Below are positions 5,073-33,952 of a stretch of 35,814 nucleotides of DNA, piece after piece. The stretch lies in contig LNDN01000120.1 of the NCBI GenBank assembly GCA_001464065.1, positions 1-35,814 on the forward strand, in the 5' to 3' direction. The translations under genes were made by a program, and so were the position numbers. The stretch is from Acidobacteria bacterium Ga0077522 (GTDB taxonomy: Bacteria; Acidobacteriota; Vicinamibacteria; Vicinamibacterales; Vicinamibacteraceae). How positions within the stretch are numbered: position 1 is the first letter of the stretch; every line of letters starts with the position of its first letter. The notes below the pieces were generated by a model. The model was given only the letters and a program-made list of their open reading frames with translations, was not told the origin of the DNA and did no database searches.

Positions 5073-5121
5073 GGAGGACGGAGGACAGAGGAGGGAGGAC
5101 GGAGGTAGGGCAGAGGGAGGA
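5073..5121 (+). repeat. Degenerate 7-bp tandem repeat, GGAGGAC type
   Basis: Seven consecutive heptamers: GGAGGAC, GGAGGAC, AGAGGAG, GGAGGAC, GGAGGTA, GGGCAGA, GGGAGGA. The strand is purely purine-rich and has several Shine-Dalgarno-like cores. It lies between the stop of the aminotransferase and the start of the membrane-protein gene. It is in frame with that gene from an alternative GTG at 5069. Confidence 0.75.
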
Positions 5122-8279: not shown

Positions 8280-8902
8280 TCCGCCTGCTGATTGCCGACG
8301 ACCATCCGATCGTGCGGCACGGTCTGGTGCAGATCGTCTCTCGTGAGGTCGACATGCAGGTCGTGGCCGAGGCCGGGGATTCGGCCCAGGCCCTCGACGC
8401 CGGGCAGCGCACCGAGGTCGACGTCGCCGTGCTCGACCTCGCGATGCCCGGCCGGGGCGGCCTCGACGTGCTGCGTGAACTCAAGCGCGTGCGGCCGGCC
8501 CTGCCCGTGCTGATCCTCAGCATGTACGGCGAGGACGTCTTCGCCATGCGAGCGCTGAAGGCCGGCGCCCACGGCTATCTCACCAAGGAGAGCGCGGCCG
8601 GCGAACTGGTCCAGGCCGTGCGCACCGTGATGGCGGGCCGCCGCTACGTCACCACCGCGCTGGCCGAGCGCCTGGCCGCGCTGGTCGGCGGCGCGATGAC
8701 GCCCAATCCGCACGAGCAACTCTCCGACCGCGAGATGGCCGTCTTCCGTCTGCTCGCCGGCGGCCACACCGTGACCCAGGCGGCCGACGACCTCGCCCTC
8801 AGCGTCAAGACCGTCAGCACCTACCGGGCCCGACTGCTGCGCAAGCTGAATCTCCGCACGACCGCCGACCTGGTGCGCTACGCCGTCGATCACGGCATCT
8901 GA
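8276..8902 (+). CDS. NarL/FixJ-family response regulator
   Basis: DNA-binding regulator of 208 residues. The receiver domain shows the acidic pair Asp8-Asp9, phospho-acceptor Asp54 in VAVLDLAMPG, Ser at LILSMYGE and Lys in GYLTKESA. A LuxR-type helix-turn-helix follows (residues about 143-208: LSDREMAVFRLLAGG, LSVKTVSTYRARLLRKL). Start ATG 8276 overlaps the kinase stop (ATGA), showing translational coupling. Its own TGA stop forms the first bases of an AT-rich repeat element (8901-9081). Target genes cannot be told; the upstream kinase is the evident partner. Confidence 0.95.
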   Translation: MIRLLIADDHPIVRHGLVQIVSREVDMQVVAEAGDSAQALDAGQRTEVDVAVLDLAMPGRGGLDVLRELKRVRPALPVLILSMYGEDVFAMRALKAGAHGYLTKESAAGELVQAVRTVMAGRRYVTTALAERLAALVGGAMTPNPHEQLSDREMAVFRLLAGGHTVTQAADDLALSVKTVSTYRARLLRKLNLRTTADLVRYAVDHGI

Positions 8903-9081
8903 GCAATTCAGCATTCAGAATTCAGAATGAAGGGCGGGGCCGACTGGGTTGGCTCTGCCGAACCATACGGCTCTCAGGTCGTTCTGCGAGTGCGTTGCCG
9001 CACCACGACTGGTGTCTGTGCCCCCGCGGAGCCTGGCGATGTCAGCTGCGCGCGACATCTTGAATCTTGAAGTCTGAATTG
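8901..9081 (+). repeat. AT-rich palindromic intergenic element with 7-bp periodic arms
   Basis: The left arm starts inside the regulator stop codon as GAGCAATTC and continues in heptamers: CAATTCA, GCATTCA, GAATTCA, GAATGAA (8904-8931), then GGGCGGGGCC. The right arm (9060-9081) is TTGAATC, TTGAAGT, CTGAATT, G, an imperfect inverted copy of the left arm. The first 44 bases align without gaps to the element at 23324 with about 36 identities. The centre contains a weak bulged hairpin (GGTTGGC, TCT, GCCGAACC) and no gene. Confidence 0.75.
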
Positions 9082-9694: not shown

Positions 9695-9722
9695 CCTGAG
9701 CCCTGAGCCCTCGCCCTGAGCC
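9695..9722 (+). repeat. Short imperfect heptamer tract, CCTGAGC type
   Basis: CCTGAGC, CCTGAGC, CCTCGC, CCTGAGC: three copies of the heptamer with one 6-base slipped unit, directly before the promoter of the next gene. Weak alone; listed because 7-bp periodicity recurs in other gaps in this window. Confidence 0.5.
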
Positions 9723-12524: not shown

Positions 12525-12564
12525 GTCGGCACGCGGGACGGGCGGCGCCGGGTGCCCGGCTGTC

Positions 12565-12634
12565 GGTTCCCGGTTCCCGGTTCCCGGTTCCCGACTCTCG
12601 ACTCCCGACTCCCGACTCCCGACTCCCGGTTCTT
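12565..12634 (+). repeat. 7-bp tandem array, GGTTCCC then GACTCCC
   Basis: Ten units in exact 7-base phase: GGTTCCC four times, GACTCTC once, GACTCCC four times, then GGTTCTT. It fills the gap between the SpoIIE phosphatase and the M1 peptidase promoter. A second array with the same GACTCCC unit and the same order of unit types is at 33835-33918. Confidence 0.9.
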
Positions 12635-21969: not shown

Positions 21970-23325
21970 TTGAGTCAACAAGTGCAGGACCCGGCCCAGG
22001 CGTCCAGGAAGCAGCAAATCCTGGCCGAGGCCGAGGCGGCCGGCGTCAAGTTCCTGAGACTGCAGTTCACCGACATCCTCGGGGTGATCAAGAACGTCGA
22101 GGTCCCCGACCGGCAGTTCGCGGCCGCCCTCGACGGCAAGGTGATGTTCGACGGCTCGTCCATCGAGGGCTTCGTGCGCATCGAGGAGTCGGACATGTTC
22201 CTCACGCCCGATCTCTCCACGTTCCGCATCTTCCCGTGGACCGACCCGTCGGGCGAGAAGGTGGCCCGGCTCATCTGCGACATCACCAACCCCGACGGGA
22301 CCGGCTTTGCCGGGTGTCCGCGGCAGACCCTCAAGCGCGCCATCGAGCAGGCTCGTGCCCGTGGATTCACGATGAGCGCGGGGCCCGAGGCCGAGTTCTT
22401 CCTCTTCCAGACGCGCGACGACGAGCCCACCACCGAGACGCACGATGCGGCCGGGTACTTCGACCTCACGCCCGTCGACCAGGGCGAGGACGTCCGTCGC
22501 CAGATCGTGCTGATGCTCGAACAGATGGGATTCGAGGTCGAGGCCTCGCACCATGAGGCCGCCTGGGGCCAGCACGAGATCGACTTCCGGCACGACGATG
22601 TGCTGACCGCGGCCGACAACGTCAGCACCTTCCGGTTCGTGGTCAAGAACGTGGCGCGCCGCAACGGCGTGCACGCGACGTTCATGCCCAAGCCCGTCTT
22701 CGGCGTCAACGGGTCGGGCATGCACACGCATCAGTCGCTGGCGCGCGACGGCGTCAATGCCTTTCACGATCCCGATGGCCCGTTCGAGCTCAGCCGCACG
22801 TGCATGAACTACATCGGCGGCCTGTTGCAGCATGCCGAGGCGTTCTGCGCGATCACCAATCCCCTGGTCAACTCGTACAAGCGGCTCGTGCCGGGCTACG
22901 AAGCGCCCACCCACATCGCCTGGTCGGAGCGCAACCGCAGTCCGCTCATCCGCATCCCGGCGCCGCGCGGCGCGGCGACGCGGATCGAGCTCCGCATGCC
23001 GGACCCCTCCTGCAATCCCTATCTCGCCTTTGCCGCGATGCTGCGGGCTGGCCTCGATGGCATCGACAACGATCTGGATCCGGGCGCGCCCGTCAGCAAG
23101 AACATCTTCAAGATGTCGCAGCGCGAGCGCCGGTCGCTGCGCATCGACGAGCTGCCGCACAACCTCGACGCCGCCCTCGATCAGCTCGAGCGCAGCGCGC
23201 TGATGCGCGACACCATGGGCGACCACATCTTCGAGCACTTCATCGAAGCCAAGCGCCGCGAGTGGTTCGAGTACCTGCAGCAGGTCAGCGCCTGGGAGAT
23301 TCAGCGGTATTTGAAGGTCTACTGA
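21970..23325 (+). CDS. glnA: Glutamine synthetase type I
   Basis: Enzyme of 451 residues that makes glutamine from glutamate, ammonia and ATP; forms a dodecamer in the cytoplasm. Seen: N-terminal DGSSIEGF, the metal and substrate Glu motif PEAEFFLF, HHEAAWGQHEIDF, the KPVFGVNGSGMHTHQSL segment, and NRSPLIRIP with PDPSCNPYLAFAAML. At about 450 residues it is the shorter I-alpha type (as in Gram-positives), and I see no adenylylation Tyr loop (NLY/DLPP), so regulation by GlnE is unlikely. Start is TTG 21970, supported by AGGGAG seven bases upstream. Its stop codon TGA forms the first bases of the composite repeat element. Confidence 0.96.
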   Translation: MSQQVQDPAQASRKQQILAEAEAAGVKFLRLQFTDILGVIKNVEVPDRQFAAALDGKVMFDGSSIEGFVRIEESDMFLTPDLSTFRIFPWTDPSGEKVARLICDITNPDGTGFAGCPRQTLKRAIEQARARGFTMSAGPEAEFFLFQTRDDEPTTETHDAAGYFDLTPVDQGEDVRRQIVLMLEQMGFEVEASHHEAAWGQHEIDFRHDDVLTAADNVSTFRFVVKNVARRNGVHATFMPKPVFGVNGSGMHTHQSLARDGVNAFHDPDGPFELSRTCMNYIGGLLQHAEAFCAITNPLVNSYKRLVPGYEAPTHIAWSERNRSPLIRIPAPRGAATRIELRMPDPSCNPYLAFAAMLRAGLDGIDNDLDPGAPVSKNIFKMSQRERRSLRIDELPHNLDAALDQLERSALMRDTMGDHIFEHFIEAKRREWFEYLQQVSAWEIQRYLKVY

Positions 23326-23586
23326 GCAATTCGAAATTCAAGATTCAAAATGAAGCGCGGGGCCAACTCCGCCATCTCCGGGTAGAGCGCTCGCGGGGCC
23401 AGCGTCAGTGGGTAGGGCCCGTTCTCCGAACGGGCCGTCGTGATCGTGTCCCTCGTGGTCGCAAGGTGCGTGACGGTAGCGGTGGTCTGACGATGACGGC
23501 CGGCTCGGAGAGCCGGCCCTACCCAGCGCCTCGCCCCGCGCTGCATTTTGCATTGTGAATGTCAGTGAAATGAGCCTCAATTGCTC
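23324..23586 (+). repeat. Composite nested palindromic element filling the glnA downstream gap
   Basis: Outer ends are inverted: GAGCAATT (23324-23331) and AATTGCTC (23579-23586). Next to them are AT-rich arms in 7-base phase (AATTCGA, AATTCAA, GATTCAA, AATGAAG on the left; GCATTTT, GCATTGT, GAATGTC on the right). Each arm ends in an inverted GCGCGGGGC/GCCCCGCGC joint. The core is a pair of inverted GTAG-headed hairpins (23410-23524). The element begins in the glnA stop codon and ends at the base before the next ATG. Confidence 0.85.
23410..23524 (+). repeat. Inverted pair of REP-type hairpins, copy 1
   Basis: Left unit: GGGTAG head, then stem GGCCCGTTC, loop TCC, GAACGGGCC (23416-23436), then GTC. 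Right unit in opposite orientation: GAC, stem GGCCGGCTC, loop GGA, GAGCCGGCC (23498-23518), then CTACCC. A GTAG foot directly before a hairpin is the signature of REP sequences mobilised by RAYT (IS200/IS605-like) transposases; two facing units make a BIME-like element. No RAYT gene lies in the window. Confidence 0.8.
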
Positions 23587-23935
23587 ATGCACCTGCTCCT
23601 GGCCGACGACGACGAGTCGATCCTGATGGTGGCGCGGCTCGGGCTGCGCCGTGCCGGGTTCGAGGTGACGGTGGTGGAGGACGGCGTCGCTGCGTTGGCG
23701 GCAGCCCGCGAGACGGCCTTCGACGCGCTCATCCTCGATCGACGTCTGTCGTCAGTTGCTGGCCGACCCGGCCTGGACCAGGGTGCCCATCCTCTTCCTC
23801 ACGGCCGCCTCCCACGAGGGGGCCGAAGAGGAAGCCCTCGCGGCCGGCGCGCACGGCGTCATCGCCAAGCCGTTCGATCCGATGCATCTCGGCGAGCAGG
23901 TCCGGGCGCTTCTCACGAAGCACGCCGAAGGCTGA
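23587..23935 (+). pseudogene. Receiver-domain (CheY-like) gene with internal frame break
   Basis: The first part from ATG 23587 encodes a receiver domain (HLLLADDDESILMVARLGL, then phospho-acceptor Asp in DALILDR). Near 23735-23745 the frame breaks; the second part, in the next frame, reads DVCRQLLADPAWTRVPILFLTAA and ends GVIAKPFDP to HAEG, stop at 23933-23935, with the conserved Thr and Lys. The MMPGLDG loop expected between them is missing. A deletion of about 7-10 residues plus a frame change explains it; short CTCGA-like repeats on both sides could have recombined. Without the break it would be a single-domain response regulator of about 125 residues. The initiation region lies directly against the repeat element and shows no ribosome site. 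Real decay or assembly error are both possible. Confidence 0.75.
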
Positions 23936-23936
23936 T

Positions 23937-23962
23937 GCGCCGACCTGAAGGTCGACGCCTAC
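23937..23962 (-). repeat. REP-like hairpin of a second family
   Basis: Read on the minus strand: GTAG, then stem GCGTCGACCT, loop TC, AGGTCGGCGC. All ten pairs form on the minus strand, one as a T-G wobble; on the plus strand that pair is a C-A mismatch, which points to the minus strand as the functional one. A truncated second copy (CTGAAGGTCGACGCCTG, 23974-23990) follows. Confidence 0.6.
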
Positions 23963-24007
23963 GAACCCTGGGGCTGAAGGTCGACGCCTGCGGCACCCTG
24001 CGACTCG

Positions 24008-25042
24008 CTACGCGACCGCCGGCTCGAGCAGCCGGATCGTGCCCGTCGTGGCGTCGATCTCGGCCGGCACGCCAATCGGCATGATGAACTGCCGGTCGAT
24101 GTGGCCGATCTGCGCGCCTTCCCAGGCCGGCACTTTCAGGGGCTTCAGGTAGTCGTCGAGCACGTCCCCGATGGTGAGCGACCCGTAGCTGCCCTCGCCC
24201 GGCGTGCACTTGGTGCAGCGGCCGAAGATGACGCCCTTCACCTGATCGAGGATGCCGGCCAGCTTCAGCTGCATGAACATCCGGTCGATCCGGTACGGCG
24301 CCTCCTGCACGTCTTCCACGAACAGAATCGCATCGGTGAAGTCCGGCAGCAGTCCCGATCCGACGATCGTCGTCAGCACCGTCAGGTTGCCGCCGAGCAG
24401 ACGACCGCGCGCGCGGCCCGGCGTGATCGTCCGGATCCGGTTCTCGGTCGGCACCAACTGATCGCCGGCCTGCAGCGGGTTGGTCATCGTCACGGCCTCG
24501 CCCTGCATGAGGACGCGGCGGAACCAGTCCACGTTGAACCGGTTCCACTCCGAGGCCCCGTTCATGCCGTGGAACGTCACGAACCCGCCGCGCGCGAACA
24601 CCGGCAGGAGCAGGGCCGTGATGTCGCTGTACCCGAGCAGGATCTTCGGATGACGGGCGATGGCCTCGAAGTCGAGCAGCGGGAGCAGCCGTGCGCAGCC
24701 CCAGCCGCCGCGCAGCGCGTGCACGGCGTCGACCTCGGGGTCGGTGAACATCGCCATGACGTCGGCGGCCCGGTCCTCGTCACGGCCGGCCAGATAGCCT
24801 CGCCGATCGAGCAGATGCGCACCGAGCTTCGCCTTCAGCCCCAGCGCCGCCAGCGACTCCACGACGATGTCCACGTCCACCGGGTCCCACGTCGCCGAGG
24901 CCGGATCGACGACGCCGACGACGCTGCCGGGGGTGAGTCGACGTGGCTTGCGAATGGCCCCGCCGGTGGGGGCGCGTGGCAGGCCGACGGGCTCGGGGGC
25001 CACGAGCGACTGCTGCAGGAACTCCCGGCGCGTGCTCGACAT
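24008..25042 (-). CDS. ldcA: S66-family LD-carboxypeptidase-like protein
   Basis: Serine peptidase family S66 (LdcA, muramoyltetrapeptide carboxypeptidase), 344 residues, expected to remove the terminal D-Ala from peptidoglycan tetrapeptides. The triad is visible: Ser139 in LLGYSDITALL, Glu243 in LFVEDVQEAPYRIDRM, His314 in QIGHIDRQF. HALRGGWGCARLLPLLD and GRLLGGNLTVL are also family motifs. The N-terminus has a twin-arginine-like STRREFLQQS, but the hydrophobic stretch expected after it is nearly absent (LVAPEPVGL), so export is doubtful. ATG 25042 has TACTAT seven bases upstream and no Shine-Dalgarno. It is divergent from the membrane-protein gene with only 23 bases between start codons. 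Confidence 0.88.
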   Translation of the reverse strand: MSSTRREFLQQSLVAPEPVGLPRAPTGGAIRKPRRLTPGSVVGVVDPASATWDPVDVDIVVESLAALGLKAKLGAHLLDRRGYLAGRDEDRAADVMAMFTDPEVDAVHALRGGWGCARLLPLLDFEAIARHPKILLGYSDITALLLPVFARGGFVTFHGMNGASEWNRFNVDWFRRVLMQGEAVTMTNPLQAGDQLVPTENRIRTITPGRARGRLLGGNLTVLTTIVGSGLLPDFTDAILFVEDVQEAPYRIDRMFMQLKLAGILDQVKGVIFGRCTKCTPGEGSYGSLTIGDVLDDYLKPLKVPAWEGAQIGHIDRQFIMPIGVPAEIDATTGTIRLLEPAVA

Positions 25043-26760: not shown

Positions 26761-28371
26761 ATGCATCGTCGGGACTGGCTTCGCAGACTCGTGGCCGCTG
26801 GCGCCGCCGGTGTGATGCCGGGCGTCGGGGCGTCGGCCGCGCACGGCCTGGCGATGGGGGAGCGCGCCTCGTGGCTGGACGAGGCCCTGCCGATCCTGCC
26901 GGCTGAGCCGCGTCGGCTGAAGGCGTACGACCTGCGGGTCAAGGCGGCGTATGCGGCGGCTGGCGCCCGGACCCCGCCGCAGGACGGACGCGTCGACGAG
27001 GCGCGTGTGCCCGCCTTCCTGGCGATGTTCAGCAAGGGCCTGCCGCATGACGCGTACGGGATCGTCGATCCCGAGGCCTATCGTGCCCTCGCGCGCGCGG
27101 CGGCAGGCACGGGCCAGGCGCGGTTCGAGGACGTGCCGCTCGGGGGAGTGCGCCGGCTCGTGTCGCCCCAGGCGGCCTTCGCGTTCGCCCTCGACGGTCT
27201 GGATGCCGCCATGCTCGGCGTTCCGGATCCGCCGATGTGGGACACGCCGACATTCGCGACCGAGGCGGTCGAGGCCTACTGGCTCGCGTTGCTGCGGGAC
27301 GTGCCGTTTGCGCGCTATGCGGAGGACCCGCTCGTCGCGCGCGCGGCGGCCGACCTGACCCGCGCCGGTGCTGAGACCACAGCCGGCACGCTCCTGGCGC
27401 GGGTCCATGGGGCACGCGCGGTTCCCGGCCCGATCGTCTCGCAATTCCTGCTGCGGCCGGTGCCCATGGGCGCTCAGGTCCTGTCGCCTCGCGTCGCGGC
27501 GCAGACCTCGGGCGAGACCTTCCTCGCGACGTGGGATGAGTGGCTGGCCTCGCAGAACGGGCACCTGCCCGTCCGCGACGTGACGTACACCGGCCGACGC
27601 CACATCTGCTGCGGTCGCGACCTCGCGACCTGGACCCGCACCGACTACCCCGGGCAGGCCGGTGTGCAGGCGGCGTTGCTGCTCGAGTCGCTGCGGGCGC
27701 CGGTCACCGAGGGTCACCCCTACGTCCGGTCGCGCAACCAGGCGGGATACGTCACCTTCGGCTTGCCCTTCATCGTCGATCTCGCGTCGCGGGTGGCCAT
27801 GCACGCCCTGCGCGCCGCCTGGTTCCAGAAGTGGGTGGTGCATCGACGGCTGCGGCCCGAGGAACTGGGCGGGCGGCTCGAGGCGGCGGTGGCGGGCGCC
27901 CCCGTCGCAGCGTGGCCCGATGCGCGCTTCGTGCAGTCGGACGGCTTCGAGGAGATGCGCCGGCGCACGGGTGCGTGCCTGCTGCCGACGGCCTGGCCTG
28001 AAGGCGCCCCGCTGCACCCGGCGTACCCGGCGGCGCATGCGGCGACGGCCGGGGCCATGGTGACGGTGCTCAAGGCCTACTACGCGGAGGAGTGGGTGCT
28101 GCCGGATGCGGTCGCGCCGTCGGCAGACGGCCGTGACCTGCAGCCCGTCGACGAGCCGCTCACGGTCGGGGGTGAGCTCGACAAGCTCGCGTGGAACCTG
28201 GCGCTCGGGCGTGCCTTCGCCGGGGTGCAGTGGCGCAGTGACGCCGAGGCCGGGCTGCGACTGGGCGAGACGGTCGCGGTGGCGCTGTTGCGTGAACTGC
28301 GCGACCTGTTGCCGGAAGCCGATGTGCGCTTCGCGCTCCGGTCCTTCGATGGCCTGACGATCGACGTGTAG
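26761..28371 (+). CDS. Vanadium-dependent haloperoxidase-like (PAP2 superfamily) protein, metal site altered
   Basis: Protein of 536 residues. The N-terminus HRRDWLRRLVAAGAAGV is Tat- or Sec-like, so it may be exported. The C-terminal half is the algal-type vanadate fold: Lys357 and Arg365 in QKWVVHRRLRPEE, His426 in HPAYPAAHAATAGA, Arg484 in GRAFAGV. The residue that coordinates vanadium in the family (His in AGVHWRSD) is Gln490 here (AGVQWRSD), and the Ser-Gly pair of YPSGHA or YPAGH is Ala424-Ala425. The length and segment order otherwise fit haloperoxidases. With the axial ligand lost, peroxidase activity is doubtful; a phosphatase-like or non-catalytic role is possible. The start has a leaderless-type box. 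The gene is convergent with the outer-membrane barrel gene. Confidence 0.8.
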   Translation: MHRRDWLRRLVAAGAAGVMPGVGASAAHGLAMGERASWLDEALPILPAEPRRLKAYDLRVKAAYAAAGARTPPQDGRVDEARVPAFLAMFSKGLPHDAYGIVDPEAYRALARAAAGTGQARFEDVPLGGVRRLVSPQAAFAFALDGLDAAMLGVPDPPMWDTPTFATEAVEAYWLALLRDVPFARYAEDPLVARAAADLTRAGAETTAGTLLARVHGARAVPGPIVSQFLLRPVPMGAQVLSPRVAAQTSGETFLATWDEWLASQNGHLPVRDVTYTGRRHICCGRDLATWTRTDYPGQAGVQAALLLESLRAPVTEGHPYVRSRNQAGYVTFGLPFIVDLASRVAMHALRAAWFQKWVVHRRLRPEELGGRLEAAVAGAPVAAWPDARFVQSDGFEEMRRRTGACLLPTAWPEGAPLHPAYPAAHAATAGAMVTVLKAYYAEEWVLPDAVAPSADGRDLQPVDEPLTVGGELDKLAWNLALGRAFAGVQWRSDAEAGLRLGETVAVALLRELRDLLPEADVRFALRSFDGLTIDV

Positions 28372-28395
28372 CCGGGCAGGGCCGCGGGCCCGCGT

Positions 28396-28515
28396 TGGGT
28401 AGGGCCCGCCGCTGGGTAGGGCCGGTTCTCCGAACCGGCCGTCACGACCGCATTTCCCATCACCAATGCCGACGACGCTGACGCTGACGGCCCGCTCGGA
28501 GAGCGGGCCCTACCC
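28396..28515 (+). repeat. Inverted pair of REP-type hairpins, copy 2, with partial extra head
   Basis: Main element 28414-28515: GGGTAG, stem GGCCGGTTC, loop TCC, GAACCGGCC (28420-28440), about 48 bases, stem GGCCCGCTC, loop GGA, GAGCGGGCC (28489-28509), CTACCC. A partial duplicate of the head (GGGTAGGGCCCG) precedes it at 28397. Compared with copy 1, the fifth stem pair is switched (C-G against G-C) in both hairpins, yet pairing is kept. It lies between convergent genes and probably ends both transcripts. Confidence 0.85.
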
Positions 28516-28519
28516 GTCG

Positions 28520-29182
28520 TCAGTCGAAGAAGTAGTGCAGCAGCGCCGAGACGCGGGCGCCGCCGATCGACGGGCCGTTGCCGAAGTTGAAGTCGTCCAG
28601 ATCGTTCTCGCCCGACACGCTCAACTCGCCGCTGACCTTCAGGCGCGGCGCGCCACGGAAGCCGACCTCGACCCCACCCACGCCCGCCGGCTTCACCGAC
28701 GTGTCGTCGAAGCTGCCGATGTCGGTGCGGAAGACCCGGATGCCGCCGCCCGCGTAGGGACGCACGTTCACGGCGTCGCTCCCGAAGTCGCCGATGGCCA
28801 CGATGAAGGTCGGTTCGAAGCGCAGGTACTGGACGTCGTCACCCAGGAAGTCGCTGTCGCCGCCGAAGCCGAGATGGGCCTGGACGCCGAAGCGTTCGTT
28901 GGCCCAGTACCGGAAGCTCGGCCCGATCTCGAACTCGGTCAGGCCGCCGACCGCGCCGAGCCCGACGGCGCCGATGTTGGGACCGGCGCTGCGGCCGCGC
29001 CGACCCTGGACCACTGCGGCGGAGAAGGCGGTGCCGGTCTCGAACGGGCTGCTGACGGCCGGCGCCGCGACTGGCGATGCGGAAGATGTACGCACCCCGA
29101 CGGCCGGCTCCTGGGCGAGGAGCGCCGTGGGCGCAAGGACGCAGACCGTCATGAGGGCGGACGCGCGAATGATACGGAGCAT
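28520..29182 (-). CDS. Outer-membrane beta-barrel protein, hypothetical
   Basis: Exported protein of 220 residues. Signal peptide ends at ALLAQ. A Ser/Ala/Val linker (about residues 25-50) is followed by alternating polar/hydrophobic strands typical of an eight-stranded OmpA/OprF-type barrel: EIGPSFRYWANERFGVQAHLGF, FEPTFIVAIGDF, VRPYAGGGIRVF, and a terminal strand GGARVSALLHYFFD ending in Phe-Asp near the C-terminus. GGGAGG lies seven bases before ATG 29182. It follows the UPF0182 gene on the same strand after 107 bases, in which I see nothing clear. Function unknown. Confidence 0.8.
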   Translation of the reverse strand: MLRIIRASALMTVCVLAPTALLAQEPAVGVRTSSASPVAAPAVSSPFETGTAFSAAVVQGRRGRSAGPNIGAVGLGAVGGLTEFEIGPSFRYWANERFGVQAHLGFGGDSDFLGDDVQYLRFEPTFIVAIGDFGSDAVNVRPYAGGGIRVFRTDIGSFDDTSVKPAGVGGVEVGFRGAPRLKVSGELSVSGENDLDDFNFGNGPSIGGARVSALLHYFFD

Positions 29183-33786: not shown

Positions 33787-33834
33787 GCCCCGCGGCTTCG
33801 ACGCCCGGCCCTACCCTTCGCCCTTTCCCGTTCC

Positions 33835-33918
33835 GGTGCCCGGTGCCCGGTGCCCGACTCCCGACTCCCGACTCCCGACTCCCGACTCCCGACTCCCGAC
33901 TCCCGACTCCCGACTCCC
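33835..33918 (+). repeat. 7-bp tandem array, GGTGCCC then GACTCCC
   Basis: Twelve units in exact phase: GGTGCCC three times (33835-33855), GACTCCC nine times without a mismatch (33856-33918). It lies between divergent genes and ends 34 bases before the porin start codon. Perfect identity of nine units suggests recent expansion or active slippage. Confidence 0.93.
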
Positions 33919-33952
33919 GATCGGTATGACGTTCGTGTAAACGTAGAGAGGC

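Follow-up and report, generated by a model that had tools for sequence, protein, structure and literature searches.

Does the spacer behind glnA in Acidobacteria bacterium Ga0077522 hold one composite mobile element, or repeats of separate kinds that share a gap? This spacer, 263 nt long (23324-23586), separates glnA from the next gene and consists of AATTCAG-type heptamer arms around an inverted pair of GTAG-headed REPs. We consider it likely that these are two independent repeat families that came to lie in one spacer apparently by chance, and that they do not travel together. Coordinates without a contig name refer to the window, the whole stretch of DNA that was analysed (35,814 nt, LNDN01000120.1), which is contig C120 of the source genome (G000); other C-numbers are contigs of the same genome. 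G001 is a sister species, and G000-G004 belong to the same genus. The G000 stretches examined were picked for their repeats and are not a random sample, and G001, a 7.48-Mb contig, was sampled over 930 kb except in the pattern searches. Genes were called with a home-made caller, and start positions are approximate.

The glnA gene (21982-23325, forward strand) encodes a type I glutamine synthetase (Pfam Gln-synt_C 1.6e-140, Gln-synt_N 5.5e-30); its start is that of gene calling, whereas the ORF list gives a TTG at 21970. The element opens at 23324, on the G of the TGA that ends glnA (23323-23325), and its last base, 23586, directly precedes the ATG at 23587, in agreement with the preliminary description, which had the element bounded exactly by the two codons. 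Direct reading of the sequence places GAGCAATT at 23324-23331 and its complement AATTGCTC at the right end, 23579-23586. A mechanical inverted-repeat search found an outer pair (23333-23363/23533-23563, 31 nt, 84% complementary) and, nested in it, an inner pair (23409-23439/23495-23525, 31 nt, 87% complementary). The left arm (23328-23386, forward strand; arm profile, model 2-60, E 2.3e-15) has AATTCAG-type heptamers at ~23328-23352, phased as AATTCGA, AATTCAA, GATTCAA and AATGAAG, followed by the GC box GCGCGGGGC (23355-23363) and an inner part. The right arm (23530-23568, reverse strand; model 2-40, E 2.5e-10) is truncated on its inner side and is a less regular end variant, GAATGTCAGTGAAATGAGCCTCAATTGCTC, with no clean heptamer run. 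The earlier claim of AT-rich arms with a 7-base phase thus holds for the left arm and fails for the right.

The predicted RNA fold of the 263-nt block is a single hairpin of -133.2 kcal/mol (z -5.53), closed by the two outermost ends, and 0 of 200 dinucleotide shuffles were equally stable. The stacking of palindromic layers is therefore real, as seen in the sequence, the two nested inverted repeats and the fold. Transcription through the gap would give the glnA mRNA a long hairpin at its 3′ end. No known RNA family was matched at the Rfam gathering score in the window and eight further loci. The downstream neighbour is a response-regulator gene (23587-24084) whose Pfam domain is matched over the first half only (residues 4-59); the G001 orthologue has a full receiver domain, and either a frameshift in the source genome or an assembly error may account for the half domain. 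A second arm element of the same family lies in the window at 8901-9081. It also begins at a stop codon, and its two arms (8905-8961, forward; 9021-9080, reverse) enclose no core REP, as was first noticed from the sequence.

The inner part of the glnA gap, 23409-23525, comprises REP 1 (23409-23439, forward strand), a 55-nt spacer (23440-23494) and the inverted partner REP 2 (23495-23525, reverse strand). A 301-nt query gave 124 matches in G000, mostly to this core, with about ten aligning over both hairpins and the spacer; alignments of several further copies through the spacer have 71-83% identity. Matches to a core query numbered 85 in G000, 50 in G001, 23 in G002, 45 in G003, 3 in G004 and 11 in G005, with 7 of the 20 genomes searched being matched, and 79 unique core REPs occur in the G000 stretches examined. 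Two Y1_Tnp genes are present in G000. The gene at C241, which scores above the Pfam cut-off, sits between REPs: REP 2 occurs exactly (31/31 nt) twice beside it, and REP 1 twice over 30/31 nt. A RAYT-type gene, which had been suggested as worth looking for, is thus present with cognate REPs on both sides. The second Y1 gene (C159) is flanked by another REP class, GTAG with GTCGACC stems. RAYTs are labelled by their HUH and tyrosine motifs. With its inverted GTAG-headed hairpins and spacer, its dispersed intergenic copies and a Y1 gene flanked by the same REPs, the core is, by its sequence, an ordinary REPIN of a RAYT system. A more diverged second REP pair of the core family is found at 28402-28515, within the convergent gap 28371-28520.

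The arms have a distribution of their own. Allowing at most two mismatches, the arm pattern ATTCNNNATNNAGCGCGGGGC has 86 matches in G000, versus 3 for the reversed pattern. G001 has 27, and 22 of them fall within 113.8 kb of its contig. Among 60 genomes listed in a search of relatives only these two stand out, the others giving 0-9 matches, about the control level; on closer inspection, G004 (the same as G060) has 2-3 credible copies. An exact-pattern scan of genome contigs for copies beyond the genus returned two records, one being the congener G004 and the other a single short match beside a tRNA that was taken as chance. Thirty aligned arms give the consensus GAGCAATTCAGAATTCANAATTCAGAATGAAGCGCGGGGCGAGCACCGCCA, and a second outer-end variant is also present. 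The profile built from G000 arms detected 31 arms in G001 C1:7328249-7442024 and four more at two sites near 3.5 Mb when 930 kb of G001 was searched. This cluster (31 of the 35 arm matches in the sampled sequence, 114 kb) lies 40-150 kb before the contig end, and the window is collinear with the edge of the cluster region. Some G000 arm loci map to this region and others elsewhere, many being unplaced since G001 was only sampled. As judged from these copies, the arms are a family separate from the REPs, an AATTCAG class with a conserved GC box, restricted to the genus. The claim that two repeat families are present, one nested in the other, is supported. The variant AATTGAG is found in 8 of the 27 G001 matches versus none of the 86 in G000 (Fisher 4e-6), with some copies lying in look-alike neighbouring blocks and not all being independent; this suggests that arms spread within a species.

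How arms are arranged with respect to each other bears on how they multiply. In the G000 and G001 stretches examined, 27 of 28 opposite-facing neighbour pairs in one gap face inward, and the remaining neighbour pairs are 28 same-side tandems. Within one group, same-side arms have an identity of 86% in G000 and 81% in G001. Between opposite arms the values are 67% and 69%, the same as for arms of different groups (67% and 69%). Arms thus duplicate in tandem, and have done so recently, whereas copying from arm to arm does not maintain the palindrome; correction between the two sides of a palindrome was therefore rejected.

Possible cargo or transposases of the arms were also considered. Arms as the ends of a Y1 transposon were rejected, since neither Y1 locus of G000 (C241, C159) has a significant arm and matches at E<=1 were limited to two of 22 nt close to the second locus. 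A 23S rRNA-intervening-sequence protein (PF05635) is encoded between inward-facing arms, with outward gene neighbours, at C88:7123-7515 (within C88 6701-7760) and in G001 near 7356.3 kb. Since PF05635 matches mostly lack arms (arms at 1 of 9 in G000 and 1 of 10 in G001), the association was taken as incidental and the arms are not regarded as carriers of this gene. An ISL3 transposase remnant between arms at C233 was taken as a later insertion.

If arms and REPs formed one unit, as in the composite non-autonomous element moved by a RAYT that the preliminary description proposed, they should be found together; the arms would then be terminal repeats and the REP pair cargo or a recognition site. 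The clean nesting in the glnA gap, the RAYT that the genome does have and a second locus with arms and a nested REP (C232:4818-5064) speak for such an element. However, a core-type REP lies in or within 150 bp of only 4 of the 53 arm groups in G000, and 49 arm groups exist without cores; counted among these 53 are a truncated duplicate (L015, a piece of C88:16680) and a group covering two gaps (L050). When gaps of at least 40 nt were compared with a length-matched expectation, counting only the core REP class, REPs and heptamers or arms shared 4 gaps in G001 versus 7.3 expected (450 gaps) and 3 in G000 versus 5.1 expected (103 gaps). An affinity between REPs and heptamers was therefore rejected, gap sharing being slightly below chance in both genomes. 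By eye, the two nested-REP loci have no interior sequence in common, and no significant arm flanks either Y1 gene. We therefore hold a single composite element to be very improbable, and the proposed co-occurrence of arms and core does not go beyond chance. The other course suggested at the outset, insertion of a REP pair into a heptamer palindrome, agrees with the shape of the right arm in the glnA gap, which leaves the family model at position 40, where it meets the REPIN; the left arm follows the model as far as position 60. This truncation suggests that the REPIN arrived after the arms.

The stop-codon precision of the element turned out to be real, without being the mark of a composite. 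Among arm ends facing a called stop, 39 of 54 begin -2 to +6 nt from the stop. Eight of these 39 begin at -2, where the arm itself supplies the AA of TAA. Ends that face a start are scattered. With gap filling allowed for, the stop-side excess is 0.84 versus 0.62 in G000 (n=19, modest) and 0.86 versus 0.31 in G001 (n=7), and start-side ends fall below the gap-filling null. In other heptamer classes, 40 of 103 stop sides lie within 6 nt (null 18.8%) and 10 of 99 start sides do (null 14.2%). Since these classes are likewise stop-anchored, precision at the stop codon is a property of the class, and the rule for heptamer arrays in the genus.

Orthologous gaps were compared with the sister species using two tables, one HSP-based and one gene-caller-based; both have boundary errors, and the sites were checked by eye. 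The G001 glnA gap is 101 bp long and holds GTCTCAG arrays facing their complements, with no arms and no REP. The orthologous gap is thus without the element, as had been asked of it, and holds a different heptamer palindrome. Seven G000 arm sites lack arms in G001. Five of them hold another heptamer array there (C120:23324, C120:8901, C339, C85:8277 and C207:2216), a proportion with p 0.006 against 94 of 450 G001 gaps that have heptamers or arms, from a small sample of sites chosen by eye. The counterpart of C88:9613 is a REP-like cluster, and that of C88:12157 is a longer stretch with a called gene. Of two arm sites found in G001 only, one has a CCTGAGC array in G000 instead, and the other, a 233-nt element in G001, faces a 10-nt gap in G000. 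The latter is a clean empty site for an arm element, of the kind that was sought at the start, away from the glnA gap. No target duplication is visible at this single site, where the flanks have diverged, and insertion is inferred from this one locus. Where both species have arms in a gap, these arms exceed others in similarity only slightly (0.697 versus 0.668; 12 comparisons, with 3 further ones not made), making their age and order of arrival uncertain, although the pair C85:5587/G001 7431677 is clearly inherited.

Two other orthologous gaps were compared. At C88 18100-18320, a double REP is flanked by two heptamer arrays (GAACGCA and CCCGACT), and the G001 orthologue is an AT-rich palindrome with an 8-nt phase. 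At C88 8670-8910 and in G001 near 7354.9 kb, both between convergent genes, the same heptamer palindrome class is kept (AGGACGG facing CCTCCGT).

Heptamer repeats are common throughout the genus. In 930 kb of G001, lag 7 accounts for 123 noncoding arrays, whereas lags 6, 8 and 9 have 2, 14 and 6, and TRF distinguishes 51 heptamer classes in the same sequence. Their density per 100 kb is 13.0 in G000, 15.2 in G001, 17.5 in G002 and 15.0 in G003. Outside the genus, small samples show a patchy occurrence of lag-7 arrays: G009 has 8 over 60 kb and G007 has 5 over 38 kb, but the samples of several relatives such as G043, G019 and G026 have none. Lag 8 exceeds lag 7 in similarly small samples of G005 (5 versus 3), G035 (5 versus 1) and G030 (2 versus 0), and the repeats of G005 and G035 lean to 8-nt units. 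The preferred repeat step may thus differ between lineages; for G011 and G055, runs of masked N enter into the lag counts. In G001, inverted heptamer neighbours did not show a general excess over direct ones (10 inverted, 6 direct, 12 of another class). Other heptamer arrays in the window lie at 33833-33920, 12551-12632, 5073-5105 and 9695-9722, the first containing a perfect run of 9.7 CCCGACT copies (33853-33920) that is probably length-variable.

With two independent families, the history of the glnA gap can be envisaged as follows. The arm family would spread from gap to gap, with arms facing inward and duplicating in tandem, and arms would settle in the gap that separates a stop codon from the following gene, since new sequence just past the stop is tolerated. 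Tandem slippage may lengthen and alter the heptamer arms, as may their exchange for other heptamer arrays. The RAYT would mobilise REPINs in trans, and one of them would later have landed in the right arm of the glnA gap and trimmed it.

Other readings concern what the arms are. They could be MITE-like and moved by a putative transposase that targets the 3′ ends of genes, which we regard as possible, if somewhat unlikely. Terminal inverted repeats and dispersed copies, both features of MITEs, are present, and so are the clean empty site, arm ends that lie only a few bases from the stop codon on the stop side and the crowding of 22 of the 27 G001 matches into 114 kb of 7.48 Mb. On the other hand, target duplication is not seen at the sole empty site, the ends differ by a few bases between elements, and left and right arms resemble each other no more than arms taken from different elements do. 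No arm-bounded transposase was found in a search that was genome-wide for Y1 only, the ISL3 remnant in one element looking later. It is unlikely that nothing moves and that the spacer is an ordinary diverged one in which selection maintains the repeats as 3′ hairpins of the mRNA or as terminators. The very stable predicted fold and the position after stops would be expected of such hairpins, and the glnA gap has a palindrome in both species, though with different heptamers. Yet the identity across gaps and species is that of a dispersed family, arms are present or absent at orthologous gaps, and the sequence after the hairpin has no poly-T tract. There is also a slim chance that a dedicated process, beyond mere polymerase slippage, lays down or remodels tandem repeats in spacers from stop codons onward, with a step specific to the lineage (7 nt in this genus and perhaps 8 in some relatives). 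Orthologous spacers would then switch palindromes with the flanking genes intact, and the AATTCAG family with its GC box would be one product.

On our preferred reading, a spacer with the look of a single elaborate element can owe it to the chance stacking of two repeat families that are independent of each other, and the tests used here distinguish them. At the level of the genus, the spacer repeats offer a lead, as they have a sharp 7-nt step, tend to begin at stops and differ in class at orthologous gaps, with some of the relatives sampled having none. A pair of cultured species with such turnover would make the 7-nt preference testable.

In the open-licence literature we found no account of such elements in Acidobacteriota, nor of a REPIN nested in a heptamer palindrome. 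Work on small dispersed repeats of cyanobacteria reportedly exists. For the systems compared below, we rely on excerpts of the papers cited. GTAG-headed REPs with RAYTs have already been described (PMC3733652; PMC3116915), and the core here is the same in its inverted GTAG-headed pair with spacer, its dispersed copies and a tyrosine transposase flanked by the same REPs, as well as in a second Y1 gene that carries its own REP class; only the setting differs, inside an unrelated repeat. The excerpt of PMC3733652 names Proteobacteria, Cyanobacteria, Chloroflexi and the PVC group as carriers of GTAG repeats, and does not name Acidobacteria. The 'TIRtrons' of the same paper, tyrosine-transposase TIR families of Acidobacteria, are likewise dispersed inverted repeats in the same phylum, but they flank transposase genes, whereas the arms were not seen to flank either Y1 gene.

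Among heptamer repeats, Xanthomonas (GGGAATC) and Nostoc (GGGGAYT) have hundreds of intergenic 7-nt arrays whose lengths vary between species, with convergent inverted pairs (70 cases in one species) and a mean distance of 28 nt to the upstream ORF versus 160 nt to the downstream ORF (PMC4692102). The present repeats resemble them in the intergenic arrays, the convergent inverted pairs and the closeness to the upstream ORF. One G-rich heptamer dominates there, whereas many classes coexist here, the AATTCAG class has a conserved GC box and classes differ between orthologous gaps. The TAACTGA arrays of Beggiatoaceae are also dispersed and intergenic, some overlapping stop codons, and relatives lack them at the same gap; they are direct and mostly upstream of start codons (PMC4679880), in contrast to the palindromic arrays here. 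A polymerase footprint has been suggested for the bacterial preference for 7-nt repeats, as cited in PMC4679880 and PMC4692102. In P6b of the Nostoc trnL intron, 7-nt repeats build both sides of the stem, and unrelated classes (Class I and Class II) substitute for each other at the locus (PMC4476775), giving a heptamer stem with class substitution as in the glnA gap, although at a single intron locus rather than in a dispersed spacer family. Heptamer repeats and REPINs are thus both known kinds, and the element behind glnA is a variant of them.
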